Notes under the pieces: generated by a model
Database searches by the model: none
The model's input: the letters and a program-made list of their open reading frames with translations, nothing else
What the model was told of the DNA's origin: nothing
Translations under genes and position numbers: made by a program
Assembly (NCBI GenBank): GCA_963681505.1
Contig: OY811971.1
Span: forward strand, 1,642,090 to 1,706,089
Length of the DNA: 64,000 nucleotides
Direction of reading: 5' to 3'
From: Eunapius fragilis
Taxonomy: Eukaryota > Porifera > Demospongiae > Spongillida > Spongillidae
Part shown: positions 4,670 to 30,261 of the stretch, in pieces
How the letters are laid out: each line of letters begins with the position of its first letter
Numbering within the stretch: the stretch's first letter is position 1

Positions 4670-5300
4670 TTCCCAAACCATGGTCCAGCAATTGCGGACA
4701 TCCATACACGTCTATGCATTGAAAACGCATGTAATGTATTTGATTGTTTTCAAGCATTAACGCAGTAGGATAATATATATAATGCATTATTTTATTTTTC
4801 GCTTTCATTATGCGAGCAGGAGAATCAACAACAAAATTAATTACTTTCGCTATTACGTAATATTTTCTTAAGAGGTCAATAATGATTAATAACATCAAAT
4901 GGTGGGCGCGCCCTTATAGTACTGGTGCATGTGCGAGTGGGAGGAGCGTGTAGTTTTCTAATTGTGCCCTTGGTTCAATACATTTGAATATTTCTTTCAT
5001 CGGCGTGGATAGACGATAGATGAACGTGCGCTCGGCGTGCATCTACCTGTTTGCTACTACTGCGTAAGTTAACGGTCCGTTCCTTCATACCTCATCCCGA
5101 TATGCGCAATGACACACCACGCGCACGCGCGCACACACATTCCTACATACTCCTAGCTCTTTTTCCTGGGGTGCACATTAGGAAGAATCACTTTAGCTGA
5201 TGCTGATTAAATGTTCTGTACACAGGGCAAGAATGGGTTAAATATCTATCTCTAGCCGCTATTAGTCAGCTGTGTCGTCTGGGTGTGGTCTGTACCCTGG
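4670..5300. repeat. Dispersed repeat A, copy 1
   Basis: About 600 bp is closely similar, in the same orientation, to 13450-14070. Shared landmarks include a GGACATCCATACACGTCT segment, GAGCAGGAGAATCAACAAC, a TTGAATATTTCTTTC segment, GTAAGTTAACGGTCCGTTCC and TAGCTGATGCTGATTAA. Here it follows the Plavaka-like pseudogene. At the other site it follows the thioredoxin-MYCBP2 gene. It may be the terminal non-coding part of a mobile element. Confidence 0.75.
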
Positions 5301-5401
5301 GCAAGATTGGGTTAAATCTATCTAGTTGAGTTGCCTGGGTGTGGCCAGTACCATGGGCAAGAATTGGTTAAATACCTCCAGTTGTGTTGTCTGGGTGTGG
5401 C

Positions 5402-5441
<40 letters not shown>

Positions 5442-5456
5442 CACTGTGTGTGTGTG

Positions 5457-5514
<58 letters not shown>

Positions 5515-5850
5515 TCCCAGCTCTTTTCCTAGGGTGTTTATATTAGGAAGAATCTTTTTAGCTGATGCTAATGTAACCTGTTGGGTTGATCTGTACCCTG
5601 GGCAAGAATGAGTTAAATATCTCAAGCTGCTAGTCAGTTGTGTCATGTGGGTGTGGTCTATACCCTGGGAAAGATTGGGTTATTATTTAAATCTCTCAAG
5701 CTGCATGCTGGTCAGTTGGTCTGGGCAAGAATTCAGATTCTCGTTGTTTTAATGTCTGGGTGTGGCCTGTACCCCAGAAAGGGCCACTGGTCATTGCAAT
5801 GCCTGGGTGTGGTCTGTACACAAGCGCACGCGCGGACGCACACGCGCGCG

Positions 5851-5928
<78 letters not shown>

Positions 5929-5935
5929 CTCTTTT
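5140..5935. repeat. Satellite-like block with TG/CA microsatellites
   Basis: A higher-order repeat of about 365-415 bp begins near 5143, 5508 and 5923 with the phrase CTCCCAGCTCTTTTCCTGGGGTG. Shorter units ending GGGTGTGGTCTGTACCCTGGGCAAG occur six or more times inside. Microsatellites are TG (about 5403-5442), CA (5459-5511) and CG grading into CA (5842-5926). A further single copy of the leader phrase lies at about 13925. All frames here are repeat artefacts. Confidence 0.75.
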
Positions 5936-6880
5936 CCTGGGGTGTAATGTATATTACTAATATTATATTCATCTCCAAAGCCTATGTACATATGTGGTTG
6001 TGTATTCTTCTGCCTACATGTAACTTTATCTGATTGTGGGATACTTGTATTTGCCTCTATTTTTTATTACAGAAATGAAAAAGTACATGGTATCTCCCAG
6101 CTTGCTAGGTGAAGCTTGCTGTGACCATTTCATGGGCATCTGAGTTGGCAAACGTCTTCTTCAAGCATGACATTATGATAAAGCGCGTAGTGTGCTTGAA
6201 GTCTTTTCAACTCTTAATTCCAAATACGATACTGCAAGATAGACATGCAGCTGGAATAGTTTTTATGAACATGTAAACTGTGGTTGATAAGGTACATACA
6301 TGTACAACCAGGACGATGACATAAAGCAGCAGTGTGGAGGCTGTGCTCACAACTATAGTATGTTTAGTAAGATTTTGCATTATCTTGCAAATTCTTACTA
6401 TACATTACATAAGCTGTTAATACTTATAGGCATTTTTTTATTGGAGGAGACCTGACATTTGGGTTTAATAGTCAACCCAGCAAGAAAATAGCTGAATGTG
6501 CATATTTGCAGTTTTATTGATACTTGATTTAATAAAATAGCAATAGGAATACAAATCTGGCATCCAAAGGTCTAGAAGGCAGGGTAACCTCATGAAGTAT
6601 CTGCGGTATATTAACACATGTAGATAGCTTTCTTGAATGAGAGGTGTTCGCTATTAATCGAAGACACCCAGAACAGTTAAAAGAATCTTGCATATACCTC
6701 CAACCAAGCCCATGCACCCTGAAGAATATGCATGAATGAATGCAAATTATCGTTACATACGCGTTACTTACGTCACCAAATATGTTGCACTACAAATATA
6801 TACCACGTGAGCGATATACCCTGCCTTCTTTCCTCCGTCGCTCGTTTTCGTCCCGCTTATTACCCTCTCGTCCCCAAATA
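5936..6880. other. No recognisable gene
   Basis: AT-rich sequence with short frames only. Nothing in it could be assigned to a family. Confidence 0.35.
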
Positions 6881-6916
6881 ATGACGTAAAGCGAAAAACA
6901 AAACACATCGCGCGCG

Positions 6917-6947
6917 TGACGTCAAGTATGTGCACATACTTTATAAA
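6917..6947 (+). promoter_or_regulatory. CRE-type site and TATA box
   Basis: A perfect palindromic TGACGTCA (6917-6924), the binding site of CREB/ATF-type bZIP factors, lies 15 bases before TTTATAAA (6940-6947). The ATG of the thioredoxin-like exon follows 41 bases after the TATA-like box, a natural core-promoter spacing with a short leader. A second half-type TGACGT occurs about 35 bases upstream. Stress-linked control of a redox protein would fit, but this is inference. Confidence 0.5.
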
Positions 6948-6988
6948 CATCGTTTTTCCTTCATTCATTTTAACCCGCGGCATATCAA

Positions 6989-7273
6989 ATGTCTCTGCTG
7001 GACCTTTTACTCGCAAAGGCCCTCGTAGATAGCCTGGCGCAGGCCGCTGACACGCCTGAAAACTTCAAGGAGTTGAGGCCTATCCCCGCGTCCTGGCGCG
7101 GTTTGAAGGAGACATGTAAAAGGGGGAACAACGTCATTGCGGTCGACGTCACGAGGAGCGATAACCAGGCCTGTCGCAGGACTCAGCAGATCTTCCTTCA
7201 ATTGGCGAAGAAACACGACGAACTTACATTTTTCCGCGCCGAAATCGATGAGTTCAACTATACGTTTCCAGAG
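6989..7273 (+). CDS. Thioredoxin-like domain, exon 1 of a thioredoxin-MYCBP2-module gene
   Basis: Codons 1-95 of a probable 269-residue protein. The frame opens at the first ATG after a TATA-like box. Residues 48-95 follow the thioredoxin pattern: a beta strand (VIAVDV), the active-site loop, a helix (QIFLQLAKKH) and a strand (FFRAEIDEF). The usual C-x-x-C is replaced by C62-R-R-T65, so only the first cysteine remains, as in monothiol relatives. The exon ends at GAG/GTATCG in phase 0. The frame after the donor carries no thioredoxin end, and the missing part (strand, cis-proline, strand) is found in phase 0 at 12814. The frame has no stop or frameshift although its neighbours are decayed. Splicing across 5.5 kb is inferred. 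Confidence 0.65.
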
Positions 7274-8559
7274 GTATCGTATGTATTTAAAAAGTGTGTA
7301 GAGCTCTAATGAATTCGACATTAAGTGGCACAAAATGGTTTCTTGCGCTGGCTCAGCTGAATCCAAGCCGGCGGAGATTAAATAAGGTTAAATGATGCAT
7401 CGCGCATGGCCATGGTATGCATTGAAAACTTTTTTTTTTGTTGTTTTTTACATTACGTAATATTGCGCAAGTTTTAGTCATCGTTTTTGACGTAATCATA
7501 ATTCGTGGGCGTGAGTGGGGGTGTGTGTCCCTCCCCACAGATTTTTCCATATCATACTGATTTCATCACAGACAATAGGCTTCGGTCTTTATTTATTCTA
7601 AACGTTTTATCCTACAATACGCAAAATCGCCTTCAAGCTTCAAATAAGGGAATTTAATTAGTGGTTAAATGGTTATCAACCCCCGCACCCCGGTCCAGTT
7701 GTCTCATCTGTGAAAGGAGATTAGTCTCGTACCCAGACCCACATCGCAGCTGCGGATGGAATACATCACCGCCTACGCGAGTAGTGGGTCTGGTGTCCTC
7801 CTGTACAAATTTCTGTCCAGCGATTACATAATAGCCGGCATACACGGGTCAACTTTTGTTGAGCAACAAGTTGATTGTGCGATGAATGCAATTATATTTT
7901 TAGTAAAACATTAGTTTACTGATATTTTACAAGAAATTTACAAAAATTCATTTGTTGCTCTACAAAAGTTGACCCCGTGTATGCTGGCCTTAATACATTC
8001 AAAGTCATGTATGAATAATATTATCTTCCGCAAGAATGCAATTAGTGTGTTAATGCTTTAATTAGCAAGCTACTACATTTCTGGACCTCTCCCTTCTTCG
8101 TACAATATCTTCCCCTATTAAGGAAGCGATTATCAGTGCACTTAGCATTGGTATCACCCGATCCTAAACGCCAGCTTTTTGAATTATCTCTCATAAGCGA
8201 TGTTATTCTGGTCAAAGTAAATGTAAGCTATATGTTGCATCACAAGTGCTGGGTCACAACCTGCGGTGGGGAGCATCCCGCCAAGGCCTGCCCAGCAACT
8301 GAAAGATCATCCTGACAAGGCTGCATCTCCTGACGGTGTGTCCATGGACCTCTCTTTACTTTCACTGCACACACCCTACATCGGACCTCACTTTCCTTTC
8401 ACTGCACGCAACCTAATTTCACTGTCCATTACTCCACAATTGACAATGTGGTGGGGCTCCTTAGCAGATTTGAAAAAGGAGCCATGATGGCAGTGCATTC
8501 AGAATGGTTCCAATTCAGGCCGCTGAATGGAGTTCCCATTCAGAGGCCATGATTGGAAC

Positions 8560-8995
8560 CATTCTGAATGCTGATTTTGAGGAGGCTCCACCACCATATC
8601 TATCCTAATTCTGAAGCCAGAGCTGACATACGATGGTGGAACAGCTTCCTACCATCTTGGACGGAATGGCATTTCTATATTCATCTCCCCAGTTTGGAAC
8701 TATCCAGAGTCCAATCCAGTTGTACACGGATGCCTCTGGCACCTGTGGTTATGCATGGGGACTGGTTCAGAGGCAACTGCCCACACCAGTGCCTCAAGAG
8801 CTGGCAGAGCTCTAGAAGGTCGCCTGAGACACCTCCTCCACAGAGCTGTGGCCCCTTCAACGTCGACCCTACAGGGCAGGGATCAGAAAGTACTATGCCT
8901 TCTGTCACAAATTTAACCTGACCACTCTGCCAAGGAATCAAGCACTCCATCAACCTTTTTACTGGGTATCTCAGTCAAACGGGGAGTGAGGAAGG
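8560..8995 (+). pseudogene. Tyrosine-recombinase (DIRS/Ngaro-type) retroelement fragment
   Basis: Three shifted frames join into the pattern at the RNase H/recombinase junction of DIRS-like elements. About 8620-8665 gives RWWNSFLPSW. About 8665-8810 gives SSPQFGTIQ and LYTDASGTCGYAW, with the RNase H aspartate in YTDAS. About 8830-8980 gives LHRAVAPST and then AGIRKYYAFCHKFNLTTLP, typical of the N-terminal SAM-like part of the tyrosine recombinase. Frameshifts and a stop (about 8814) break it, and the rest of the element is missing. It probably came along inside the outer Mutator-like element or inserted into it. Confidence 0.6.
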
Positions 8996-9453
8996 ATCGT
9001 CTATGGGAGAGGTAAGTTTATCAAAGTGGGCATGCTTACCCCTCTTAACTTTGTGGCTCAAGGGGTAGGGACATGGTAGTGAAGGCAGAAGGGGGCGTTG
9101 AGGAAGCTGCTCTCTCGCGACCTGGAGTGGTGGGTCCTCTCGCGCCGCTTGAACTTCTTCTTGCATGCGTCGGAGTCGCTGGACTCAGACGACGAGCTTG
9201 CTTCTCACCTAAGATGAGGATCGGCTGTGACATCGTTTCTCGCTCTTTGCCTTTTTAGCGCAATTGTGAGTGCCTTGCTTCGTACCCCTAGAACCGATAG
9301 CTCGTCAAATAAATACCCATAGCAGATCAGAACGCCGTAACCTGTTGGTAAGCTTACGAACGTGTCCCAACCACGGTCCGCGTCTTCGATGACTCGGAAC
9401 TGTTCGTCCTTAACTTTGGCATACCCCATACGTTCACCCGCCGACTGAATCGC

Positions 9454-10260
9454 ACGTATTACTAGTCTCGTACCCAGACCCAGATTCCCAACAGCTGCGG
9501 ATGGATTACATCACCGCTACGTGGAAAGTGGGTCTGGCTCATAGGTCGAACTTTTTTGTTCTGCGGATCCTGAGTGTTACACAATCTTTGTGTCGTCACA
9601 AAAATGGGGTGTCGTTTTTTGTCGTCATATACTAATTATCGTGTCGTCATAACTAATTACCTGGCTCAAAACACAGAAAGAACGTGCATTCCACCGCGCG
9701 CCTAGTAAGAATTAGGAAGCACCCAACAGGGCACATGCATGTCCTTTTATGACTGTGGCATGAGAAACAGTATACCTTAAACAATTTAGTTCCAGAAAGC
9801 ACGCAGGAAGCAGCTGCTCCAAAAGATAGAAAAGAACGTTGAGGTTGAGGTTTTTCGGGATGATAGGGGCAGGCGGCCTGGCTTCCATTCGCCTCTCCCG
9901 TTCTCATCGAGTTTCTAGCCGTGCGCAGTCGCGGGCGCGTCCTTGTCTTTGTAACGCTCCTGCCCACCATGGCGGCTTGTTTCCTCAGACCCGAGCGGGT
10001 ATTAAAGCCTTAAAAACAGTCACCCTTGAGAAGGCTCCAATTAGAGTACTACTATAGCTAGCTATGGAATGCAATTACACTCGTAATTAAGTAGCACCGT
10101 GACGTCACTACGGGCTGCAATTTGATTGGTTCTCCAATATCTAGGATCCACAGAACAAAAATGTTCGACCTATGAGCCAGACCCACTTTCCACGTAGCGG
10201 TGATGTAATCCATCCGCAGCTGTTGGGAACCTGGGTCTGGGTACGAAACTAACGTATTAC
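9454..10260. mobile_element. Inner Mutator-like element (9463-10251), nested
   Basis: Inverted ends of about 105 bp begin TAGTCTCGTACCCAGACCC at 9463 and end with a near-perfect complement at 10251. They are flanked by the 9-bp direct repeat ACGTATTAC (9454-9462, 10252-10260). The end sequence is a variant of the outer element's end, so both belong to one family. It interrupts the RecQ-like fragment inside the outer element, so it inserted later. Confidence 0.8.
9653..9970 (-). CDS. Unrecognised 105-residue frame inside the inner element
   Basis: The frame starts at an ATG in a GCCGCC-ATGG context (end 9970) and is Arg/Thr-rich at first, then hydrophobic and Cys-rich. I do not recognise it. 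The good initiation context and CG-rich start could mean that a host promoter and first exon piece was carried by the element. It could equally be chance. Confidence 0.25.
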   Translation of the reverse strand: MVGRSVTKTRTRPRLRTARNSMRTGEANGSQAACPYHPEKPQPQRSFLSFGAAASCVLSGTKLFKVYCFSCHSHKRTCMCPVGCFLILTRRAVECTFFLCFEPGN

Positions 10261-10721
10261 CTGTACATCATCCATCTCTAGCCTTACCGCCATAACCGAT
10301 AACTTCGATTGATAACTAGAATATGCAATTAGCGCATACCTCAAATCTGATTGGTCGCTACAACATTCCGGCGCAACTGGACAGAAATTTGTACAGGAGG
10401 ACACCAGACCCACTACTCGCGTAGGCGGTGATGTATTCCATCCGCAGCTGCGATGTGGGTCTGGGTACGAGACTAAAAGGAGATAGGCATAGGAGATCGC
10501 TAGCACTTAAATCATCAATATTTTACAGCACAGCGCTGGTTTCTATTCCTGCGGTCATGACTTGCTACTTAGACGTAGCTAGACGCTGGTTTGCAACATA
10601 AGTCTGCAACTGTTTATGGGAGACTTGCAAAACATGGCGACTCCCCACCAATAAATCAAGCTGATAAATACATTGTTCCTTTCGACGAACAACTTCTTAA
10701 CTGTTGAGGTCGAAGAGACCA

Positions 10722-12082
10722 CTTGTATCAGAGATAATATATAGAGGGATTGGAAACGAATCACGTGCGCCATAGACTTTAGCAATTTTAGCACGCCCTA
10801 TCCTTGCACGCGTGAATCACACCTACGTTGACCAAAAAAGGGGGCGGAATTGTAGGCTTGAATTGAAGTCTTGAATGTCACAAGGTAAAGAAACATGCCT
10901 TCTCAAGTTTTAAAAAAGTATTCGATAGACGAGCCATTAAAGATTCATTGAATGCTTATAGATTCAATTTTGAGCCATTTTTTAACCGAAAAAGAAAAAA
11001 AAATGGCCATTTTTTTACTTTGCGGGGAGAATCCGGCGATCTCGAAAAACTGTTCTCGTCATTATTTGTGTATTTAATGCTCATAGTCTAGTATGTGCCT
11101 ACCGCTATGTTGTTTGCGTATAGCATCTTCAGAAACCTCGCTGTGATGTTTTGGGTACCCTTACTCTTGCGGGGAGCCACGGCTTTTTGTAACAATGGTG
11201 TCTGGTTTTGATATATTATTTTGGTAGAGCTATGTTGGTTGTGTGCCTAGCACATGTCTATAAAGTTAAATCACGTTCCAATCGTTCTGTACATTTCTTC
11301 AAAGGTGATGGGTGGAAGTAAATTGAGGTTTCGGCACATTAATGTCTAATGTCCTGGGCGTACCCCGCGGTGCACGTTTGTACACCGCGGGGTACGCAAA
11401 ACAAAGTTTTTTGCATTCCGCCGTTTCAGCATTCTAATGAAATTTGACTGTTATGCCACGTTGTATAAGTCCTTATCAGTTTGGGCTGAAGCTTTGAAGG
11501 CCTAGTACCTTTCGCTGCTGATACAACAAGTCGCCACAGCGGAGGTACACTGTACGGCGAGTGTACGCGGTAATTGAAAAATAATAATAACGTACATACC
11601 GGAAGTTTCGCGTACCTCCGCTGTGACAAGTTGCCGTAAGAGCAGCGAATGGTATTAGGCCTTCAATGCTTCGGCCCAGGCAGATAAGAACTTATACAAC
11701 GTGGCATAACAGTCAAACTTCACTAAAATGCTGAAACGGCGGAATGCAAAAATCTTTGTTTTGCGTACCCCGCGGTGTACAAACGTGCACCGCGGGGTAC
11801 GCCCAGGACATTAGACATTAAGAACGCGAAGAAAAGGGGGACGCGCTCAAGTATATGTACCTGTTACAGAAGGCCTAACCTTGTCCGTGCCTGTTCCAGA
11901 TGTTATATCTGTACAACCTTCTAAACGTGTCTGTTGTATAAAAATTCTAAGTGCTATACCATAGATTATTTAGAGATATACGTATTCGAACCGCTTGTAA
12001 GGATTCGTTCGAGGATTGCGCGCGTTAATTAGTGTTGATTGGCCCCGTTTCCAATCCCTCTATATATTATCTCTGCTTGTAT
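10722..12082. mobile_element. Non-autonomous element with 30-bp perfect inverted ends
   Basis: Inverted ends 10729-10758 and 12046-12075 are identical over 30 bp and start CAGAGATAATATATAG. They are flanked by a 7-bp direct repeat CTTGTAT (10722-10728, 12076-12082). The CAG start and the 7-8 bp duplication fit hAT-type elements. No transposase was seen. It contains the TTAA-flanked palindromic element. Confidence 0.6.
11339..11821. mobile_element. Palindromic MITE flanked by TTAA
   Basis: Two inverted arms of about 220 bp run from 11343 and to 11817 (TGTCTAATGTCCTGGGCG at the outside) and are flanked by TTAA (11339-11342, 11818-11821). TTAA is the piggyBac-type target. Each arm begins with its own 40-bp palindrome built on GTACCCCGCGGTGCACG (11358-11397 and 11762-11802), so a single strand could fold into a hairpin with two side hairpins. 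Confidence 0.8.
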
Positions 12083-12099
12083 AAATCGCCTTGTCTATC

Positions 12100-12275
12100 T
12101 ATTTCGCTACCATGGAATGCAATAATATGATGTCACTTCATGCGTCATATATATCATGCCTGTAATCTGATTGGTTCTGTAAAAATCTGCATGCAGCACT
12201 AGGACAAAATTTTCTACCTTTATGCGTAGCGGTGATGTATAGAGTAATCCACTGCTGAGGGTCTAGACTGCTATT
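12100..12275. repeat. Degenerate end of the Mutator-like family
   Basis: Segments such as GGAATGCAAT, TGATTGGTTCT and GTAGCGGTGATGTA appear in the same order as at the right end of the element ending at 10251, but with many changes. It is an old copy, and its left end is not identifiable. Confidence 0.5.
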
Positions 12276-12813
12276 TATAGCATATTCGGAGATGTTATAA
12301 TATGGGTCGTGGCAGCAAAAAGGGACTTGGCGCATTTTCCAGGAAGGGGCACCAAATTTGACGTTTATAAATGTACTAAAAAATTCTGGCCACTGTAAAT
12401 TTAAGCCTGGTTCACAATATGACGCAAGAGTCCGCGCTGGGACGTGATGGTTGTTGCAGGAATAGAAAAAATTCTATTCCTGCGACGTCGCAGCGATAAA
12501 CCAAACCTAAACCACGCCCGATACTGTTACGTTTTGGCCGAGTCCATGCAGACCAGAATTCTTCATTCATCGCGACGCATCGCGGGCTCTTGTTTCATAT
12601 TGTGAACCAGGCTTAACTCATGGTGGACAGACTAATTTCCAGTGCGTAAAAAAAAAAAGTTGTAGTCACTTGTGGAGGACATGGTGTCTCTTAGAATATG
12701 AAACCTGCTGGTCCTATTTCGCTGCCATGATCTCTGCATGTTATATCTGGCATGTTTAATTTTATAAGGGTAATTAATTATTCAATTTATGCACCACAAA
12801 TGCATTGACACAG

Positions 12814-13338
12814 CTCCGTGAAGACCTCGGCAAGGTTCAGTACACACCCACTTTTGTGTTCGCCTTCTTTAATGACGACGGTACCGAGTACGCCAAATTC
12901 GAAGGCGAAAATGAGATAACCCTTGGAATGATGAGTGGACAAATTGATGGCGTGATAAACGAACTGATGAAGCGAAGAACGAAACTGAAAGTTGTTGATG
13001 GCATGGCCGCACTCGCAGCCAAGATGATGGTGATGAGGATGGTCGGAGATGCCATAGTAGACGTCTCCATTACAGGGGCGAACGAATCGTCCAAGACGGT
13101 CTGCGATATTTGCAAGGAGACGCATCCCAACCCAGTGACTTATCACATGAAGACTGCTCATCCCGGATGCGGGAAGGACGCTGGAGGATACGGATATGAC
13201 AAAACTGGTGCGTACCGTCCTGGTTGGCAGGGAGACTGCGGAGATGGCGGGAGCGGAACGAGCACGTGGTATCTCATGTGCAAGGAATGTCGTGTGAGGC
13301 ACCTCGCTAGACGTGAAGGGAAAATAATTCCTGACTGA
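12814..13338 (+). CDS. Exon 2: thioredoxin C-terminal half plus MYCBP2/Highwire-type zinc-binding module
   Basis: Codons 96-269. The exon begins after GACACAG in phase 0, matching the donor at 7274, and has no suitable in-frame ATG of its own before the conserved part. It opens with the end of a thioredoxin fold (KVQYTPTFVFAFF, cis-proline P107, then DGTEYAKFEGEN). After a Met-rich linker, residues about 192-254 carry C192-x2-C195, H206, H211, C214, C237 and C251-x2-C254 in a setting (NPVTYHM, HPGCG, GDCGDGG, STWYL) that closely resembles the cysteine-rich segment of the large neuronal E3 ligase MYCBP2/Highwire. The RING and RCC1 parts of that ligase are absent. The stop follows GKIIPD. Likely a small intracellular redox or adaptor protein; function unknown. 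Confidence 0.7.
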   Translation, partial: LREDLGKVQYTPTFVFAFFNDDGTEYAKFEGENEITLGMMSGQIDGVINELMKRRTKLKVVDGMAALAAKMMVMRMVGDAIVDVSITGANESSKTVCDICKETHPNPVTYHMKTAHPGCGKDAGGYGYDKTGAYRPGWQGDCGDGGSGTSTWYLMCKECRVRHLARREGKIIPD

Positions 13339-13449
13339 ACAATTATTATATGTATGTATTGCGGCATTGCCGGTGTGCATGTACTGTATTGCAGTGGACT
13401 TCAATAAGTATATAAAAAATTTCTCTTTGTAAAAATAGATTGGTGGTAG

Positions 13450-14070
13450 AACATGTCCAGCAATTTCGGACATCCATACACGTCTGTACATTGAAAACGC
13501 ATGTAAAGTATTTGATTGTTTTCAGACATTAACACATGCAGTACGATTATTTTTAAAATCGCTTTTTTTATTTTTCGCTTTCATTTTGCGAGCAGGAGAA
13601 TCAACAACAAAATTAATTACTTTTGCTATTTGGTAATAATTTTCTTTTCAGGCAATAATGATTAATAACATCAAATGTGAACGCGCCTTTATAGTGCTAA
13701 TTATAAGTGCTGTTGCGTGTGTGAGTAGGAGGAGCGTATCGTTTTCTAAATGCTCCCTTGGTTCAATACATTTGAATATTTCTTTCGTCGGCGTGAATAG
13801 ACTAACGTGCGCTCGGCGTGTATCTACTACGACTGCGTAAGTTAACGGTCCGTTCCTACATCTTGATACATCATCCCAATATGCGCAATGACACACTACG
13901 CGCGCGCGCACACACATTCCCACATACTCCCAGCTCTTTTTCCTGGGGTGCGCATTAGGAAGAATCACTTTAGCTGATGCTGATTAACCGGTTGGGTTGG
14001 TCTGTACCTTGGGCAAGAAAGCATTAAATATGTATAGATGCTAGTCAGTTGTGTCATCTGACTGTGGTCT
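13450..14070. repeat. Dispersed repeat A, copy 2
   Basis: Same orientation and order as 4670-5300 with small indels. It includes one unit of the CTCCCAGCTCTTTTTCC satellite phrase. It starts about 110 bp after the stop of the thioredoxin-MYCBP2 gene. Confidence 0.75.
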
Positions 14071-14439
14071 CAGGTTGGACTACTACCTCCCCTACATGTA
14101 TGATCAGATGTTAAGGGGAATGTGATTGAATGAGGTCATATTAGCAGCTGCCTGGTAGTTCACCTTTGACTGCTAGTATCAGAACCTACGCGAGTAGGTT
14201 CCATATAGCAGTATCATGAATGTCATTATAAAAACGTCACTCACGTCTAGCGGGTCATTCAAGAATCGGGTCACTTCGCTCTTAGTGGCAATCGAGCGAT
14301 ATCAAAAAGGAGAACATCTCTGCGCTGCATCTGTGTCATAAGACGGTGTACTTCTAGAGAACAAAAATACTCTACCCATCGTCCGTACCCAGTCTCACCT
14401 AGAATTTCTCCTCCGTCGGCTTTGTCACGCACGATTTGG

Positions 14440-16690
14440 TCCGCGTCTAATTTCGGTCCGGCCGGACCAAAAATGGCTGCCTGAAATTGTCCGGCCAGAC
14501 AATTTTAGGTGCTCGATTTTGTCCCACCTGGCATTTTTTGGTCCCATGTAGTTTTTTCCTTTGGAAGGTGCATGTTGTCAGAATCAGGGACAGACGAAGG
14601 TGACACTCGTAATTAAACTGGCCTACAGTTACAAGGTCAATGGAAAGTACCCTGAAGGATGCGATGCGAACAAGAAACGATCAATCAGAGGAAAGGCGGA
14701 AAATATTTTCTTAAAGAATGGCGAATCGTGGACTAAAGGAAAAATGAATGGAACGACTAAGGTGCGTGTGCGCAGCATGTAACTACTTGCTCTTGGTGGC
14801 AAAAAGATTCTTATCCACTCTTTGGTCATCGTTGATAAGCATGGTAGTAGGAGACAAATTATGACTATAGAATCTCTCATTACAAGGATATATGAAGTGT
14901 GCGTTGTTGCATCGAATGTATAGCGAGCGTATGATTTTAGGTTCTTAGGATAACTCATCCGATTTCACCTGTCGTCGCTCTTTCGCATGTTTACTGAAAT
15001 AGTTTGTGAGGCTCATTTTGGATGCATGTGAGAAGCAGAGGATACTACATTCCTGCCATTCTGACCGTACGTCTGGCCATCTGGGAACAAAACGCACCAT
15101 CAAAAGCATTAGAGAGCGTTTCACATGGAAAGGACTCAACAAAGACGTTTTTCAACTAGTAATGGTTGCAATTAGTCATGCACATTTACTGACATGTTTT
15201 CACAGGTAGCATCCTGTGAGGCTTGCCAGAAGGATTATGATAAACTTGTTGTTACTTCTACAGAACTTCATCCCGTTCACTTGGTATCATGTAGCACATG
15301 TAGTAAATGACTTTATTGGGCCGATTTCTCCAATTTCATTATCAGGATACAGGTCAGCTCTTTTTTTTTCCATGGTATGCAAGGAATACTTGCTTTCACA
15401 GGATAGATTGCACTTTATTTTTTAATTGTATGTATAGGTACATTCTTACACTGAGTGATCACGTTTTAAAATGGGTTGAGGCGGTTGCAGTTCCAACCAA
15501 AGAGGCACATCTAGTGGCAAGTGCACTACGCAAGGTATATGCTGATCAATATTCATTGTGCACACTTTACCATATTTTTAATGTACATGTATAGCTAGAT
15601 ATTCATGCGCATGGGATTGCCCAGCATTTTGACAACAGACAATGGTTCTGAATTCAGGAACAAACTGAACAATGCAATGATGAAACAGTTGGGGATATGA
15701 CATAATATATAATTACTCCTTACCATCCACAGGTACACAAAGTGTATAAAGTCCACATATAAAGTCTTTTTTTTTTTGAGTAGTCAAATGGTCTTGAAGA
15801 GATACAATCAAACTGTGCAAAGAATGCTCTCAAAAGCAGTGATGGGACATAAGGAGATTTGGGATCAATTCATTGATTCAGCATACAACACTTTGTCCCA
15901 TGAATCAACTAATTACACTCCATTTGAAGTGAAGTTCGGAAGAAAGGCGAGGATACCTATTGATGCAGACCTGGAATCTATTTGTGAACTATTAAGTTTT
16001 TTGCCAAAGTTTGATTTTGGTTTATTTTTTAATTTACATTGTATTTTTTTAGTTAAACAAAGGAACAAAACACAGCCAACCACATGGAACATGTGTCCAT
16101 ACAAAGACAAAGGATTATGAAGAATGTGAAGTACAATATCCTTGTTGCACAGGTATAAAGTATACATACTATACTGTGGCATCATGTACACTTTTGCTCC
16201 TAGGCTAAGCAAAAGCAGCAATATGATGCCAAACACGCTATAGCCTCATTGTTTGAAATTAGTGCTAAGGTGGTTAAAAAGGATTTTCTTCGGAAAAAGA
16301 GGAAGGGAGGGAAATTGGACCCCAAATGGGTTGGGCCATACATTATAACTGCAAAGTTCAGCAAAGGATTTTACTACTTGCAATCTGTTGCCTGACCGTA
16401 TCAAGCGTGTGAATGGTGCACACCATAAGATGTTCTATAAAATGCCCACAAGTCTCATGTTATATTTATGTGATACTTATATTTATTTTGTACTTTTATC
16501 TCGGACAAAAACAGGCTGCCTAAAGTGATCTGTCCAACGGACCAAAACAGGCATAGTGGGACCATTTAGGGCAGCCTGAAATGGTCCGGCGGACCATTTC
16601 AGGCAGCTTGATTTGGTCCGCCGGACAATTTCAGGCAGCCTAATTAGGTCTGCCGGACCATTTCCGGGTATAGGACAAAAGTAGGCGTGA
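14440..16690 (+). mobile_element. Ginger-type (Gypsy-integrase-like) DNA transposon, decayed
   Basis: Both ends contain inverted multiples of a unit built on GGCTGCCTGAAATTGTCCGG with GTCCGGCCGGACC-like palindromes: left about 14448-14530, right about 16505-16680 with several units. Between them lies an integrase-like pseudogene with introns. No reverse transcriptase, Gag or LTR was found. Ginger transposons encode integrase-like transposases and have long inverted ends, which fits. Exact termini and target duplication were not resolved. Confidence 0.55.
15006..16430 (+). pseudogene. Integrase-like DDE transposase, multi-exon and broken
   Basis: Blocks in order: zinc-binding region (SGHLGTKRTIKSIRERFTWK at about 15075-15135, then ACQKDY), ELHPVHLV, DFIGPISPIS with the first Asp (about 15310), YILTLSDHVLKWVEAVAVPT (about 15435-15500), MGLPSILTTDNGSEF with the second Asp (about 15610-15660), NGLEERYNQTVQRML with the Glu (about 15785-15830), YNTLSHESTNYTPFEVKFGR, and a KKRKGGKLDPKWVGPY-type tail (about 16290-16345). 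The pattern is that of Gypsy integrases and of their intron-bearing relatives (Ginger1, KRBA2/GIN-like). Short introns interrupt it, and stops and frame changes show decay. A partial inverted copy is at 33280-33915. Confidence 0.7.
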
Positions 16691-17855
16691 CAACTTCTTC
16701 TTATTCTTATTCTTCTTCCTTCGGGAAAGTATAACTCACGACAGGAACGTTTGTAAAGCACGCCAAGTGTACCAATCGCTTCAGGACGCGTTGATCCAGT
16801 TGATCTAGCTATACTCACAACCTGATTCGTCGAAGAAATAACTTGTGGTTAATATGTTATGCTTATTTACACCATAACGCTTAAAAATTAATATCAAACA
16901 TTTGTATAATGACGTGTACTGATGTAGATACTTGCTTTTGCTCAAACGCCAGCATGGACGTACCCTAGCCTCACTGAAACCACATGCAATGCATGTGAGT
17001 GCTCTGCCGCCGCTCCATCGAACGGTGTGCTTTCTAGTCCTATCATTGAGTACAGTACCGTATACAATGGTGCATTGAAGAGGAGGGGGGGGGGGGGGGT
17101 TTGGGGGGTTTGGGAGATCTAGGAAGCATTGCCATTTGCCAATTGGCATACGATATGTGTTCGAGCTTAGTGTAGCTTAGTCCCAATTAATTGGACTCGA
17201 GGAGACCCCGCCCGCCTAAGCCACCGTCACTGTCATTGTCATTTGACAGAGCTGCCGCTTTGGTCACCTGGGCCTACATGTATGTCATCCATCCGTACTG
17301 AGGAACTACATCCGTCGCTTTCTGTGGCTCCCTCGGTATATAAGCAGGGTTACTTAGCTTGGAGTGATGCAATCGCTTCGATCTTTGGAAGTATACTGCA
17401 TGGCCCACGGTTGTTTGCGGCTGGAAACTGTGCTAATAATTAGACTATTACGGTATTGGTTTCGAAATGGTGAAATGACTGCTAATTAAAGACACCCAAT
17501 GTTTTCAAGCTGTCCATAACTCAGAAGAACCAGCTAATGTATAAATGATAACAACGGAGAGCACTAGACACAATTTCTTGACATGTTCATTTTATGCGCA
17601 TACCTCAAATTGCACCATAATATAGTATGTGCAGACCGTTTTTATAAGAGCACGCGGCACATTATTACGAGGGGTGGTTACGAAACTCGGCAGCGTGGAC
17701 TCTGTGTACTGATCTATGAGGTAAGCATATAATACAAATGACCAGAAGGCGTGTGACAATCGGAATAAACAAGCCTAAAGCGCTGACGTACTCTCTATCC
17801 CACAAACAAGACTAGCGTATTTTATGAATAATCGATAAAGTTCATGCGTACGCAT
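16691..17855. other. No recognisable gene; G run
   Basis: An intergenic stretch with a 15-base G run at 17085-17099. Short frames here show no family resemblance. Confidence 0.35.
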
Positions 17856-17860
17856 TGTAC

Positions 17861-20197
17861 ATGAACATGATTATAGGAATGGAGTGCCACATCCAGCAAG
17901 TGCCTATGTATTGCAGAGTGTGTGGGCTGAGGCTAAAGAAGACCAGAGAGAAGCCAAATACTTGCTACCATTGCAAGGTTTTCTCAGCAGAGCTGAAAAT
18001 TGCCTTTAGCATTGACACCTCGGGTGATGATGCCCGCATACAACCAGAAAGTTTCTGCATCTGTTGCAAGCATTCTATGCAGAGAATTATCAACGCAATC
18101 ACAAAGGGGTTGCACTACAAGTGTGCTGTCATCCCATTTCAGTGGCTTAAGCATGAGGAGAAGGAATGCAAGGTAGAACTATTGCTTTAAAATCATATAC
18201 ATGTTTTGAAATAACAGTGTTCATGCAGGTGTGTGAGCACTTCAAAATGTGTGCACATGGACATGTTATGAGGTCGACAGTGTCTAGTGGACGACAAGCA
18301 GGCATCACTCCTAACTTGCTCATTATACCCATCTGTGGAAGATTGCCCCTCCTCCAATTGTTCTACATGAGCCTTGTCCACTAACGGCAGCCAAAAACAG
18401 CATGTCAATCTTGAAGGAACTGAAATGTGTATTATGTTCCAATATTCTCTCACAGCCACTGGAACTTGCATGCAGTTCACTCGTATGCACCAAGTGCATA
18501 GTTGATATGATAGCAGCCTCTGGTTCTGTGAACTGTCCTTTCTGCTCAGATGATGGCCCCCTTGTTCCATCTCATATCAGACCAGCATCGAATGCTATAC
18601 TTCTGCTGCTATCAGAAGTTTTGGTTCATTGCACAAGTTGTGGTTGGGATGTTAAAGCTGTAGAATATGATGCACACGAATGTGTACCATCGCTTACACC
18701 TGAAGAAGAAAGACAAGCAGCGGAACTTCTGAAGAGGGCTGTATCCAGCAGTCCTGAAACAGGTGCCATACAGCTTGCTACAGGATTAGGAGGACAAGTT
18801 AAGTGTATTTAGTGATGGTATGGTACTATTAGTATTATATTAACAGTTTATCACTTAGCCAATCACATTCATACGACTTACTAAAGCCAGGCAACAAACC
18901 TCAGCTGCCTGTGCAAAGACAGTAAAGACAAGGTGCTCTGAAATGCAGTCTATACGCAGCATTATCAGTGGAGGAGATTCATCTGCCCTCATCCAGAGAG
19001 AAGTACTCACCCTCACTGATAAAGAGCGCCAATCTTTGTTGGATGAAGCAGGCATCGATCTCATCTTCAAGAGAAATTGGGGCTGCTGAGGTATTGGCAA
19101 TAAAGGCTGGGCTTGCCATGCCTTGGAATTAATTGCGACTACTAAGACGGTATAGCTTTGCAATACAAAATAGTGCAGATGGTATAACTCACTGTCTTTT
19201 TCAGGTGGCTGAAATCATCAGGGATTCGTCTTGCTGGGGAGGAGAGGATGCGACACATTTCAACCTATATGGCATTAATTAATAGTAACAGAAATCCTCT
19301 AGCCAAGGCTCTTCTGAAACAAGCTGCAGACAAAATGAAATCTGTCAAGTCACTTGTAAGTTGCAATAAATATTTAAATGAGTAATTAATAAAAACATCT
19401 GCACCACTAGGAAGCCAAGGTTGTCAAATGCCAAGCTACAGTGAAAAAAGGGTTTTGTGAAAAAGAAGGGCCATTTGTCAAGACACTTGACAATGCTTTG
19501 CAATCCTTTGGAGTTCAAAGGCAGCAATATTTCAGTGGAGCATTTATTGGCAACCATGTCCATAAGGCACTGAAGGTAGAATTCTTTATTATGCAGATAA
19601 AAATTCATATTACATGGCTACTTTTCTCAGCTACCCAATGTACATCAATCTCACAAATGGCACAACAACAACTGCCCCATCGATCTGATGAGGTAGTGGG
19701 AAAAGTTTCACAGTTTATTACAGCATTTTCCTTATTTGGTAACTGTCATAATATTTGTGATCGTAACTTTAATATTGATGAGGCACATGCTCAAGCACTA
19801 GACAAGGTAAGTAACGACTTTTGTGCGATTTGTTTATAAAATTTGTCCTCTACGTAAATAAACAGGCCATTCTAGAGTTCTTACTCTTCTATCGGGATAC
19901 ATTTCCAGAGGCAACAGTTCCAATTATATGCACCTTTTGGAAGATCATGCTGTACAGTGGGCTAATGCAAACCATGTTGGCTTTGGCCTACTTGGTGAAC
20001 AAGGTGCAGAGTCTATACATGCCAAGTTTAATCGGCTTGCCCTGGCATTTGCGCCCATCAAAGACAGAGTGAAGAACCTACAGTGTATTTTAAAAGAACA
20101 TCTCTTAAGCATTGAGCCACAATTGCTAGCTGCCATCCCACCTCCCGCAAAGAGAATAAAGAACAATACTTCCAGTAGCTCTGCAGAACCTCAATAA
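17861..20197 (+). pseudogene. RAG1 N-terminal-like (N-RAG type) gene, seven exons, frameshifted
   Basis: Exons of about 17861-18172, 18229-18797, 18858-19155, 19206-19352, 19413-19575, 19631-19806 and 19866-20197 are joined by introns of 50-60 bp. The first part reads CRVCGLRLK, then FSIDTSGDDARIQPESFC-x2-C, then a Cys/His stretch ending KECK/VCEHF, the layout of the RAG1 N-terminal region. Next comes a RING-like finger (CVLCSNIL, CTKCIVDM, NCPFC) and a following zinc motif (VHCTSCGWDVKAVEYDAHEC), as in the RAG1 dimerisation domain. Later blocks (FGVQRQQYFSGAFIGNHVHK, MHLLEDHAVQW, GFGLLGEQGAESIHAKFN) resemble a C-terminal region common in cnidarian and sponge relatives. Frame shifts occur near 18320, 19085 and 19925. 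No RAG1 catalytic core was recognised. Confidence 0.7.
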
Positions 20198-20508
20198 ATT
20201 TGTATTTTAACAATATACACGTCTGAATGCGGCTGCTGGGTCATGCATGTTATATGCACAGAGCAGTTGTCTATTGAACTCATTTGTACTATCTCAAATA
20301 ACCTCCGAAAAATATTGTCTATAATATCATCCCGTCTTTTATTCTTTAGAGACACCTCCCCCACATGACAAAAATGGCGGATTTTCGAACGCTCAACGTA
20401 TAGTTCAGAAAAGGCGTCATCGTTAGTATTTAGCAAAAACGGATACAACCTACAGTGTACTTTACCGCTGTATTTGTTGTTTGGCCTGTCTCGCTCCCTG
20501 AATGCCAT
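20191..20508 (-). CDS. Hypothetical 105-residue frame, antisense to the RAG1-like 3-prime end
   Basis: Opens MAFRERDRPNNKYSG and is charged in its first 70 residues. Not recognised. It could be the first exon of a gene reading left, but no splice partner was found. Chance is possible. Confidence 0.25.
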   Translation of the reverse strand: MAFRERDRPNNKYSGKVHCRLYPFLLNTNDDAFSELYVERSKIRHFCHVGEVSLKNKRRDDIIDNIFRRLFEIVQMSSIDNCSVHITCMTQQPHSDVYIVKIQIY

Positions 20509-25385: not shown

Positions 25386-25654
25386 TGTGGAAGACCGGCT
25401 TCCCATTCAGACGTGTGAACTCGTCAATGCCGATTGAACTGGAGTTAAGGGTCACAGTGGTCACTTGAATGAGTACAAGAACTTCACATTGATACTATAG
25501 AGTCGTGGGTGAAAGGCATGGGTGTATGTTTGGGTATATATACCCTGTGCGTTTACATTAATAAGAGTTGCGGTAGTAATTGGCTCAAGTGCACGTCGCA
25601 GATAACGGCGACAACGGCGCAGGCTATACGAGTAATACTGCTCGCGCGTTCACA
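25386..25654 (+). repeat. 5-prime LTR
   Basis: Starts TGTGGAAGACC and ends TTCACA. It contains TATATATA at 25535-25542, a probable promoter TATA box. Differs from the 3-prime LTR by A/G near 25514 and A/G near 25634. Confidence 0.95.
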
Positions 25655-25656
25655 TT

Positions 25657-25674
25657 TGGTGGCAGCGGTGGGAT
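25657..25674 (+). promoter_or_regulatory. Primer binding site for tRNA-Leu
   Basis: TGGTGGCAGCGGTGGGAT lies two bases after the LTR. It is complementary to the 3-prime end, CCA included, of animal leucine tRNAs of the AAG/UAG type as I remember them. Confidence 0.75.
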
Positions 25675-25746
25675 CCGATCGTCGAACAGTTCGTCGACAA
25701 TTCTACGCGGGTCCAAGGAAATACTGAACGGTGCTTCACCTCTCGG

Positions 25747-28700
25747 ATGACAACGCGTTCCGGAAAGGAATACAAAAGTCAACCGGTATCGGAAGAAGGT
25801 ATGGAGGCTGTTATAAAAGCGCTGATGGAGGATCGGCAGAAACGCGAGCAGGAGTTAATGATTCAGCAGGCAGCGGAGGAGACGAGACGGGCAGCGGAGG
25901 AGACGAGACGGGCAGCGGAGGAGTCAAGGCGCAACGAAGAACGGATAGCGCGAGAGCGGCGAGAAGAAGCGTGGAGAGCGGAGCGGAAAGAAATGCAGGA
26001 GCATATGCAAACTATGGTGGAAATGATGAGGACATCGGGGGAGATGAGCAGCAAAGCGAAACCATCGGCGGGATTAAGTGTCAAGCTGGTTCCGCTAGCT
26101 GAAAATGACGATATAGAGGCGTACCTAGTGACATTCGAAAGAATTATGGCTGCGCATAAGGTGGAGAAAAATCGATGGTCGCAGTACTTGGCACCACAAT
26201 TGTCCGGTAGAGCACAGCTGGCCTTTGCGGCTCTTCCAGCAACGAGTGCGAGCGACTATGACGCTATCAAGACGGCCGTGTTGGCAAGATATGATATCAA
26301 CGAAGAATCATATCGAAGGAGATTCCGTTCAATGACCAGAAAAGCAGGTGAAACCAATCGGGAGGTAGCTGTGAGGTTGATGGACGTACAGCAAAAATGG
26401 ATGAAGGAGTGTACGACGATTGATGAGGTGCAGCAGTTAATTGGGAAGGAGCAGTTCCTGATATCCTTAGGGAGCGCAGAGCAAAGCTTGTGGGTGATGG
26501 AGAAGAAGCCTGAGACGTGTGTAGCGGCGGGAGAACTGGCTGACGAGTACGAACAAGCGAGACGAAGCACCCGGATTGATACAGGGAGTGTTCTGGACCC
26601 AGGTCGGCGGAAACCGGTACAATTTCCCAAAACATCGATATCCAAATGCGGGTTTTGTGGACTAAAAGGGCATGTTGAAGAAGAGTGTCGGAAGAAGGTC
26701 GGGACCCAGAAGGAAGGAGTCGGGAACGAGGGAAAGATCCGGTGCTACCATTGTAAGAAACTGGGGCACATATCGAGCAGATGTCCGGAAAAGGAAGCTT
26801 TATTCTGTTTTGAAGACAGGGACTTCGCCGGTTCGAAACTGTGTCACAAGGGATTGGTAGAAGGACGGAAAGTAGCCAAGATACTACTAGACACGGGATG
26901 TTCCAGAACCATGGTGAACCAAAAGTGCGTTCCTTCAGAGAAGATCCTGGATGGAAAGATGGTTTCCATTCGGTGCGCTCATGGAGATACACGACTTTAC
27001 AACTTGGCAGAGGTGACAGTGCAGGTGCAGGGAGTAACAATGCAGGTGGAAGCTGCAGTGGCGGATAACCTGCCAGTGGATGTGCTGTTGGGAACTGATG
27101 TCCCGGAACTGACCAGGCTCATAAGTGACAGAGAGCCTAAGGCGGGAGCAAGCTTACCGAAGCAGGAAGACGTTATGGTGGTGCTGACAAGGGCACGGGC
27201 CAGACAGCAATTGGAAGAAGAGATAGTTAGGAGAGCAAAACAGGTGCAGTCTCAGGTGCGGCCAAACCCCCTAACTACTGCAAGCGAAGCGGACGAAGTA
27301 GCTCGTCAGGTGTTAGCCGAGAAGGCCGAAGGACCGAGGGCAGAAACGGTCTCTGCGAGAATACTACAGGACGAGTCCGGAACCCCACATTTGAGTTCCA
27401 GTTCGGCAGAACAGGTGGTTATTTCGTCGGGGAAAAAGGCACTCGTGAATCCAGTTCCTCAGATGGCTCTTAGTTCGAAAGAGTTGAAGGAACTGCAGGA
27501 GAATGATCCCACCCTTTCGAAAGTGCGAAGGAAAGTGGATCAGACAAATAACCCTGAAGGAGAGTTCTTCAGGAGAGAGGGATTGTTTTACCGAAGGTGG
27601 AAACCCCCAGGACGCGGTGTCGAGTACGAAGTGGAGCAGCTAATTCTACCTAAGCAGTGTAGGAAGACTGTCCTAGAACTGGCACATGACATTCCTATGG
27701 CGGGACACCAAGGGCGAGACAAGACACGGCAGCGGATCTTACGGAGATTCTACTGGCCGTCGGTATTTCAGGATATCGAGAACTTTTGCAAAAGTTGTCG
27801 TATATGTCAGAAGGCTTCCAAACAGAGGGTGAAGGCAGCTCCTTTAATTTCCCTACCTGTGATATCGGAGCCGTTTAGTCGAGTGGCAATGGACATAGTG
27901 GGTCCGCTTCCTCGCAGCAAGGCAGGACACCGCTATATACTGGTACTGTGCGATTATGCAACTCGCTATCCAGAAGCCATTGCACTGCGCAGTATAGATG
28001 CTGAACATATCGCAGAAGAACTCATGAAACTCTTTTCGAGAGTGGGAGTTCCGAAGGAGATCCTCACGGATCAAGGCAGCAATTTTACGTCACAATTGCT
28101 GGCCGAACTGTACAGACTGTTAGGAGTCAAGGGAATTCGAACAAGTCCTTATCACCCGCAGACGGATGGTCTCGTCGAGAGGTTTAATCAGACCTTGAAG
28201 GGGATGTTGAGAAAAACCGTGCAGGAGGAAGGGAAGGACTGGGATAAAATGATTCCCTACTTATTATTTGCTTATCGGGAGGTACCTCAATCCTCTACTG
28301 GATTTTCGCCGTTCGAACTGCTTTATGGTCGTGATGTCAGAGGACCTCTGGACATTCTACGAGAAACCTGGGAAGCAAGTTCTAAGAGCGACGAGACGGT
28401 TGTGAGTTATGTTTTGGAGACCCAACGGCGTCTGAAGGAGATGGCGGACATCGCTGGAGAAAACATGCTCGAAAGCCAAGAGGAGCAGAAAAGATGGTAC
28501 GACAGGAGGGCACGACTGCGTGAGTTTAAACGTGGTGATCCTGTGTTAGTACTCCTGCCGACGACGGCAGATAAACTTATGGCACAATGGCAAGGCCCAT
28601 ATCAAGTGCTAGCAAGAGAAGGAAAGGTGACCTACCTAGTAGACATGCACGATAGGAAGAAGCGACGCAGGGTTTTCCACGTTAACATGTTGAAAGCTTT

Positions 28701-30261
28701 CCACGTACGTACGGAGGCTGTGGGTTACATGGAAGAGGACATTCTGGAAGGAGTGGATGACATTCCTGTATGGAAGGAAGAGGTTGCCACAGAAGCCCAA
28801 TTTGGTGAGGAACTTAGTGTAGAGCAACTAGGCCAAGTGAAGGAAGTGCTGAAAGAGTTTCGCAAACAGTCAATATTCAGTAATCGGCCGGGAAGAACCC
28901 ACCTGATGCAGCATCGCATTAAAACGGGAGAGGCGCGACCAGTCAGAATGCCCCAATACCGCTTACCTCATGCATATCGGGAACTTGTTGACAAGGAGTT
29001 ACAGGAAATGGAGGAAGGGGGGATTATCGAGACGTCGAACAGTGAATGGGCATCACCTATCGTGCTGATAAAGAAGAAAGATGGAACGATGAGGTTCTGT
29101 ATCGACTATCGTCGGCTGAATGCTGTGACTCAAGTGGAAGCATATCCGATGCCGAGGATAGATGACATCATTGATCGCCTTGGAAAGGCGCAGTTCATTT
29201 CGACTCTGGACTTAACAAGAGGATATTGGCAGATGCCAGTAGCTACAGAGGATCGGGCCAAGACGGCCTTCGTTACACCTAAGGGTCTGTACCAATTCAA
29301 GATGATGCCCTTTGGATTAAATGGTGCTCCAGCGTCATTCCAGCGGTTGACAGATATGTTGGTGAAGGGGTGTGAAGAGTACGCAGCAGCTTACCTGGAT
29401 GATATTGTGATCTTCAGCCAGACATGGAAGGAACATCTCGGACATCTGAAGTCGATTCTGAAGCGGATTGGGAAGGCAAACCTTACGGTTAAGGCAGCAA
29501 AATGTCAGTTTGGGATGAAACAGTGTGTGTACTTAGGTCATGTCGTGGGGAACGGAATGGTGCAACCTGAAGGGAGCAAGGTTAACGCAGTCAAATCTTT
29601 TCCACAACCTGAAACAAAGCATCAAGTTCGAGGATTCTTGGGCCTTACTGGGTATTATCGGAGATTCATTCCAGACTATGCAGCAATCGCGACACCGTTG
29701 ACGGACCTGACTAGAAAGTCTTCGCCTAATGTTGTTGTATGGGATGATAAGTGTGCAGAAGCTTTTGAGCGGTTAAAGAACTACCTATGTTCCAGTTCGG
29801 TGCTGAGAAGTCCGGATTTCACAAAACCATTTGTGCTACAAACGGATGCATCCGACAGAGGAGCAGGGGCGGTGTTAAGTCAATGTGACTCGAAGGGAGA
29901 AGAGCATCCAGTTGCTTATTATAGTAGGAAGTTCCTACCGAGAGAGGAAAGGTACTCAACAGTGGAGAAAGAATGCCTGGCTATAAAACTGGCAGTAACA
30001 GCTTTCAGGGTATATCTATTGGGGAGGAAATTTACTATCCAAACGGATCATCGGTCTTTGGAGTGGCTAGACCGACTTAAGGACAGTAATCCCAGATTGT
30101 GCAGGTGGAGCTTGGGACTTCAACCCTATCAGTATACAGTCGTTCACAGACCGGGAAAGGCAAACGGGAATGCGGACTCACTCTCACGCATCGCAACAAA
30201 CAGGTCTGTTGCAGGAGAGGGGAGGTGGTGTGGAAGACCGGCTTCCCATTCAGACGTGTGA
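25747..30261 (+). CDS. Gag-Pol polyprotein, 1504 residues, order Gag-PR-INT-RT-RNase H
   Basis: Starts at the first ATG after the primer site; no earlier in-frame start is needed. Residues about 20-110 form a charged coiled-coil, followed by a retrotransposon Gag region. CCHC knuckles lie at C301-C314 and C333-C346. The protease has LLDTG with D382. Integrase follows directly: zinc ligands H647, H654, C684 and C687, catalytic D716, D775 and E811 (35-residue D-E spacing), and a GPY motif at 950-952. Reverse transcriptase comes after it: D1155 and YLDD with D1218/D1219. RNase H has D1367, E1409, D1434 and D1477. Most Ty3/Gypsy elements have RT-RNase H before integrase; this order is that of Gmr1-like elements. 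All catalytic residues are present and no frameshift separates Gag and Pol. The last 11 codons lie in the 3-prime LTR. Confidence 0.96.
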   Translation: MTTRSGKEYKSQPVSEEGMEAVIKALMEDRQKREQELMIQQAAEETRRAAEETRRAAEESRRNEERIARERREEAWRAERKEMQEHMQTMVEMMRTSGEMSSKAKPSAGLSVKLVPLAENDDIEAYLVTFERIMAAHKVEKNRWSQYLAPQLSGRAQLAFAALPATSASDYDAIKTAVLARYDINEESYRRRFRSMTRKAGETNREVAVRLMDVQQKWMKECTTIDEVQQLIGKEQFLISLGSAEQSLWVMEKKPETCVAAGELADEYEQARRSTRIDTGSVLDPGRRKPVQFPKTSISKCGFCGLKGHVEEECRKKVGTQKEGVGNEGKIRCYHCKKLGHISSRCPEKEALFCFEDRDFAGSKLCHKGLVEGRKVAKILLDTGCSRTMVNQKCVPSEKILDGKMVSIRCAHGDTRLYNLAEVTVQVQGVTMQVEAAVADNLPVDVLLGTDVPELTRLISDREPKAGASLPKQEDVMVVLTRARARQQLEEEIVRRAKQVQSQVRPNPLTTASEADEVARQVLAEKAEGPRAETVSARILQDESGTPHLSSSSAEQVVISSGKKALVNPVPQMALSSKELKELQENDPTLSKVRRKVDQTNNPEGEFFRREGLFYRRWKPPGRGVEYEVEQLILPKQCRKTVLELAHDIPMAGHQGRDKTRQRILRRFYWPSVFQDIENFCKSCRICQKASKQRVKAAPLISLPVISEPFSRVAMDIVGPLPRSKAGHRYILVLCDYATRYPEAIALRSIDAEHIAEELMKLFSRVGVPKEILTDQGSNFTSQLLAELYRLLGVKGIRTSPYHPQTDGLVERFNQTLKGMLRKTVQEEGKDWDKMIPYLLFAYREVPQSSTGFSPFELLYGRDVRGPLDILRETWEASSKSDETVVSYVLETQRRLKEMADIAGENMLESQEEQKRWYDRRARLREFKRGDPVLVLLPTTADKLMAQWQGPYQVLAREGKVTYLVDMHDRKKRRRVFHVNMLKAFHVRTEAVGYMEEDILEGVDDIPVWKEEVATEAQFGEELSVEQLGQVKEVLKEFRKQSIFSNRPGRTHLMQHRIKTGEARPVRMPQYRLPHAYRELVDKELQEMEEGGIIETSNSEWASPIVLIKKKDGTMRFCIDYRRLNAVTQVEAYPMPRIDDIIDRLGKAQFISTLDLTRGYWQMPVATEDRAKTAFVTPKGLYQFKMMPFGLNGAPASFQRLTDMLVKGCEEYAAAYLDDIVIFSQTWKEHLGHLKSILKRIGKANLTVKAAKCQFGMKQCVYLGHVVGNGMVQPEGSKVNAVKSFPQPETKHQVRGFLGLTGYYRRFIPDYAAIATPLTDLTRKSSPNVVVWDDKCAEAFERLKNYLCSSSVLRSPDFTKPFVLQTDASDRGAGAVLSQCDSKGEEHPVAYYSRKFLPREERYSTVEKECLAIKLAVTAFRVYLLGRKFTIQTDHRSLEWLDRLKDSNPRLCRWSLGLQPYQYTVVHRPGKANGNADSLSRIATNRSVAGEGRWCGRPASHSDV
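30213..30228 (+). promoter_or_regulatory. Polypurine tract
   Basis: AGGAGAGGGGAGGTGG directly before the 3-prime LTR, the plus-strand primer site in reverse transcription. It lies within the end of the Gag-Pol frame. Confidence 0.85.

Follow-up and report, generated by a model that had tools for sequence, protein, structure and literature searches.

A sponge gene family that looks to join a thioredoxin-like domain lacking the catalytic dithiol to a MYCBP2-type Cys/His module

Domain organization and proposed role

We describe in the freshwater sponge Eunapius fragilis a family of two-exon genes at three loci, whose products of 269–272 residues appear to combine a thioredoxin-like domain that is redox-dead with a C-terminal Cys/His module of the type seen in MYCBP2, and which we lean towards reading as binding adaptors. 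The copy under study lies on chromosome 1, in a window of 64,000 nucleotides (the whole stretch of DNA analysed; contig OY811971.1, positions 1,642,090 to 1,706,089), and all positions without a contig label are those of the window. As originally predicted, its exons have open frames and join in phase 0 to encode 269 residues (95 and 174 codons, then a stop), with a GT just after 7273 and an AG just before 12814. The two-exon gene is real, and its features are as follows.

6989..7273, + strand: exon 1 (95 codons), encoding the N-terminal helix region and the putative first half of the thioredoxin-like domain; open frame, GT donor; a homologous exon occurs in two paralogues and in three genes that are more distant
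7163..7174, + strand: Asn-Gln-Ala-Cys, codons 59–62, occupying the position of the Cys-x-x-Cys of thioredoxins with its first Cys lost, according to alignments with PDB thioredoxins and among six genes
7274..12813, + strand: GT-AG intron of 5540 bases that carries dispersed repeats and foldback elements
12814..13338, + strand: exon 2, 174 codons and stop, putative second thioredoxin half, linker and Cys/His module; the frame is open after an AG acceptor, and two paralogues have the same exon
12847..12849, + strand: Pro, codon 107, at the place of the thioredoxin cis-proline; aligned to PDB thioredoxins and invariant in six of six genes
13102..13290, + strand: Cys/His module, residues 192–254, C-x2-C-x10-H-x4-H-x2-C, then C237 and C251-x2-C254

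The protein would begin with a helix region, continue with a thioredoxin-like domain lacking the catalytic dithiol and then a variable linker, and end in the Cys/His module. On the most economical reading, the thioredoxin-like domain would act as a protein-binding scaffold and not as an oxidoreductase, the module would bind zinc and dock a partner, and the whole protein would work as an adaptor. Non-catalytic thioredoxin-like domains serve as scaffolds in other proteins, and to our knowledge the product holds no recognisable catalytic motif.

The domain combination looks both real and unusual. New domain pairings are common among animals; we know of no protein that carries a thioredoxin-like domain together with a MYCBP2-type module, and, in line with the original prediction, sequence searches of Pfam, NCBIfam, PADLOC and PDB returned no such architecture. 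Searches of an open-access literature collection gave no description of this architecture or of the module. The conserved domains named in the accessible part of PMC4806438 are RLD, PHR, RBD, FBD1, MBD and RING; the words "zinc" and "cysteine" are absent from its main text as far as accessible, and "zinc" was not found in the accessible text of PMC10945567. A natural protein of 269 residues that holds the module on such a small scaffold would lend itself to work on the structure and the partner of the module.

The C-terminal Cys/His module

All eight Cys and His residues of the module are invariant in the three copies and, judged from their pattern, would suit two zinc ions; the first part is spaced almost like a C2H2 finger. 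The module had no match in Pfam or NCBIfam, its sequence matched no solved PDB structure, and no relatives were confirmed among 40 pattern matches in viral contigs and 28 in prokaryote contigs. It is 40/72 identical, gapless, to a provisional human MYCBP2 sequence that does not come from a database record, in which all eight putative ligands are presumably kept. A 638-residue stretch of human MYCBP2, provisional in the same way, retrieved from the genome, at E values up to 10, the three fusion genes only (3.0e-23, 2.9e-22 and 1.6e-20). MYCBP2, Highwire and RPM-1 presumably carry the corresponding Cys/His module upstream of their DOC domain. Compared with these PHR ligases, the 269-residue product contains no RCC1, PHR, filamin, DOC or RING domain (Pfam, E up to 10).

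The sponge has a MYCBP2-like gene of its own on the minus strand of C19 (~4.353–4.367 Mb), where four of the seven frames scanned gave Pfam matches, among them RCC1 repeats (E 9.2e-13), a PHR domain (1.7e-8) and a filamin repeat (3.6e-6). Probes for the module, for RING/TC and for the module-to-DOC stretch, whose sensitivity is reduced by introns, did not find its second half (DOC/RING) in the assembly; of five places retrieved with the module probe, two (E 0.33 and 0.35) were set aside as spurious, as their frames look retroelement-like. Directly after the filamin exon, the gene runs into an assembly gap of 200 N (C19:4352842-4353041), and a loss of the second half therefore cannot be claimed; a gene ending after filamin is a reading that this gap supersedes. 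Two candidates on C11 were also dropped: a DOC-domain match considered as the missing half, which is followed downstream by ZZ-like Cys motifs that would fit a ZZEF1-like gene, and GGWFLVCDHC at C11:1717.57k, considered as a split module, which reads better in another frame. The accessible text of PMC12616128 gives the Eunapius fragilis assembly a BUSCO completeness of 60%, with 825 contigs in 23 scaffolds, and absences from it are therefore weak evidence.

The likeness to MYCBP2 could be an artefact of a reference sequence that was written down after the query had been viewed, or the domain could be an old, free-standing one of which MYCBP2 is one user among several. The stretch aligned with the module is indeed provisional, and probes for the module gave no match in the MYCBP2-like gene of the sponge. 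However, MYCBP2 had been named independently in the original prediction, the gap interrupts the sponge gene just where its second half should begin, and as a control, a RING/TC stretch of MYCBP2 written down in the same way was correct at 253 of 254 positions against PDB 6t7f. We hold both of these possibilities to be improbable. Within the limits of a provisional human reference, the identity and the eight kept ligands speak for the MYCBP2-type module that had been predicted, and the C-terminal module looks homologous, by this comparison, to one in MYCBP2.

The thioredoxin-like domain

Sequence comparison of the spliced product with PDB retrieved poplar thioredoxin h (1ti3; E 3.2e-5, 26.4 bits, residues 35–112), and further thioredoxins matched at E 0.0065 to 1.5, some of them reaching residue 131–132; a profile built from six family genes matched 1ti3 at E 1.2e-6. 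Exon 1 alone matched 1ti3 at E 1.7e-4 and accounts for 24.9 of the 26.4 bits, so that exon 2 contributes little to this match. No thioredoxin was retrieved in a sequence search with exon 2 alone, and structure prediction for this exon gave an unusable model (mean pLDDT 42). The spliced product matched no Pfam family at E values up to 10, hence no thioredoxin-type model, and NCBIfam likewise gave none. What counts against the thioredoxin reading is that the top 11 of 28 PDB matches are designed TIM barrels; these stem from one stretch of ~25–45 residues that is repeated in those proteins (three chains aligned, and four with the six-gene profile), and they also head the PDB matches of the six-gene profile and of exon 1 alone. 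The two exons had been predicted to complete one fold: matches to thioredoxins do span the junction, and the fold itself is a proposal drawn from sequence. Together, the alignments support a thioredoxin-like N-terminal part.

In the PDB alignments S-D-N-Q-A-C-R falls on S/T-W-C-x-x-C-K/R, which places Asn59 at the position of the attacking Cys and Cys62 at that of the resolving Cys. Across the six-gene alignment the attacking Cys is kept in 0/6, the Cys62 position in 5/6 and Pro107 in 6/6. The active site had originally been read as C-R-R-T, which is out of register, since the Cys of that motif is Cys62; CRRT as a redox motif was discarded on this ground. Similarity to thioredoxin h and cytosolic thioredoxins (PDB 1ti3, 1wmj, 2vlt and 3trx) extends over product residues 35–131, with Pro107 on the cis-proline, whereas the product differs from them in its Asn-Gln-Ala-Cys in place of Cys-x-x-Cys, an N-terminal extension of ~35 residues, the C-terminal module and the lack of a Pfam thioredoxin match.

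Redox sensing, as first suggested for this protein, is left unsupported by a family in which none of the six members has the CxxC dithiol. A redox sensor or monothiol redox protein, in which Cys62 would react with oxidants or partners and relay a signal to the zinc module, can still be envisaged from the retention of Cys62 in five of the six genes, and zinc-bound Cys residues of the module could be oxidised too. We nevertheless think this quite unlikely: the attacking Cys is missing throughout, the Cys that remains aligns with the resolving one, and in one relative both positions are without Cys. With Asn59 in the attacking position and the first Cys kept in no gene, dithiol chemistry is unlikely, and we prefer to see the domain as a probable scaffold.

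Related genes with other C-termini

The exon 1 search also retrieved three more distant genes (C19:5589170, C19:4800616 and C3:14385923), whose second exons were retrieved in the exon 2 search. Their first exons are homologous to that of the window gene and they share its junction, so that in 6/6 family genes an identical splice site, with GT and AG, follows a Glu codon. Identity to the window product in the thioredoxin part is 57% and 47% for the C19 pair (in the order given) and 38% for the C3 gene. What differs is the remainder: in the C19 genes a long charged coiled coil takes the place of the module (frames of 368 and 366 residues), and in the C3 gene a short coiled-coil-like stretch does. 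A module profile run against 20 kb around each C19 gene and 10 kb around the C3 gene gave nothing convincing (best E 0.15, 0.12 and 0.43), and a Pfam scan of one of the C19 coiled-coil genes returned sub-threshold matches only. One of the C19 thioredoxin/coiled-coil paralogues is without both active-site Cys.

The replacement of the module by a coiled coil suggests that the N-terminal part is a reusable interaction cassette with exchangeable C-terminal parts, and in this early-branching animal a thioredoxin-like domain lacking the dithiol may be in use as such a module. More tentatively, and with rather low confidence, the six genes could be taken as a sponge family whose members are small adaptors, each with a redox-dead thioredoxin-like cassette and an exchangeable C-terminus, in which one branch uses a free-standing MYCBP2 module that binds the partner of that module or competes for it. 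If so, this branch would give access, in minimal form, to a portion of the giant ubiquitin ligase for which the literature searched described no role. A role as competitor for this partner would be the boldest form of the adaptor proposal.

Exon junction and paralogues

Whole-genome searches covered 218,937,333 bases on 24 contigs, and those using the exons as queries located both of them at three loci: the window, C1:719661, which lies on chromosome 1 at 0.93 Mb from the window copy, and C17:914887. Some of the places retrieved were set aside as spurious, namely one of seven for exon 1 (E 0.21, 32 residues) and four of ten for exon 2 (E 7.5e-4 to 0.38), whose frames look retroelement-like. 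A pattern search yielded four matches, one of which was set aside (two mismatches); a reversed control pattern gave three. In the order window, C1 and C17, the introns have 5540, 5509 and 1051 bases and the products 269, 272 and 272 residues, and all three copies have a common phase-0 GT-AG junction with no stop or frameshift. A chance meeting of the two exons is ruled out by the agreement of the three loci, which also contradicts a joining of exon 2 to a MYCBP2 gene elsewhere (the outcome named beforehand as speaking against the gene), as exon 1 precedes exon 2 with the same junction at each of them. That the exons never share a transcript, exon 1 ending alone by read-through and exon 2 belonging to another transcript, would fit a long, repeat-rich intron, a join predicted from DNA alone and the 12 further codons that stay open past exon 1 before a stop, but is made highly improbable by the agreement of 3/3 copies, whatever their intron length, in the two exons and their order and in the junction and its phase, and by three further genes with the same first junction and a homologous start of the second exon.

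In exon 1 the proteins of the C1 and C17 copies are 91% and 84% identical to that of the window copy, and in exon 2 they are 84% and 82% identical, respectively. At the DNA level, the exons of the C1 copy are 93.3 and 91.3% identical to those of the window, with intron ends at 84.6 and 70.5%, upstream flank at 79.6% and downstream flank at 51.4%. For the C17 copy the exons are 90.5 and 90.6% identical, whereas the first and last 200 bases of the intron and 300-base flanks reach 43.5–45.1% in a forced global alignment. Agreeing with this, blastn of window 5000–16000 against a 10-kb piece of C17 (C17:914200-924199) gave two matching pieces, 6961–7277 and 12790–13319, and homology between the two copies ends close to the exon edges. 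The dS of the C17 copy to the C1 copies is just 0.16–0.18, though intron and flanks fail to align; each of three processes could account for this, namely gene conversion between exons, constraint on synonymous sites, or turnover of repeats.

Selection was estimated from dN/dS (NG86) among the three copies. Over the whole protein the ratio is 0.50–0.57 (Fisher p 0.004–0.038), and over the thioredoxin half 0.36–0.43 (Fisher p 0.004–0.018 in 3/3 pairs), which shows that the thioredoxin half is under purifying selection. The module has 0.50–0.81 (p 0.07–0.35), with none of the three pairs significantly below 1, and the linker 1.05–2.33; both results count against the adaptor reading.

Intron and surroundings

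The intron proved to be rich in repeats, as had been noted, with both dispersed repeats and long inverted repeats present. Positions 8230–8930 match at least 40 genomic places, the intron itself included (40 scored of 163 candidates), and at the other 39 scored places the best pieces are 78–91% identical. A foldback-element-like inverted repeat of 210 bases, 91% complementary and with a 63-base spacer, occupies 11339–11821.

Downstream on the + strand, 17829–20198 holds an adjacent gene or element of several exons. One piece of it is RAG1 importin-binding-like (Pfam PF12560, E 3e-4, 20.9 bits, under the cut-off of 23.3), another is a RING piece (PF00097, E 2.3e-4, 21.4 bits, slightly above the cut-off of 21), and a third had no match when scanned against Pfam. 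Further along the same strand, 25636–30258 is open between stops for 1541 codons and, judged by eye, is probably a retroelement gag-pol.
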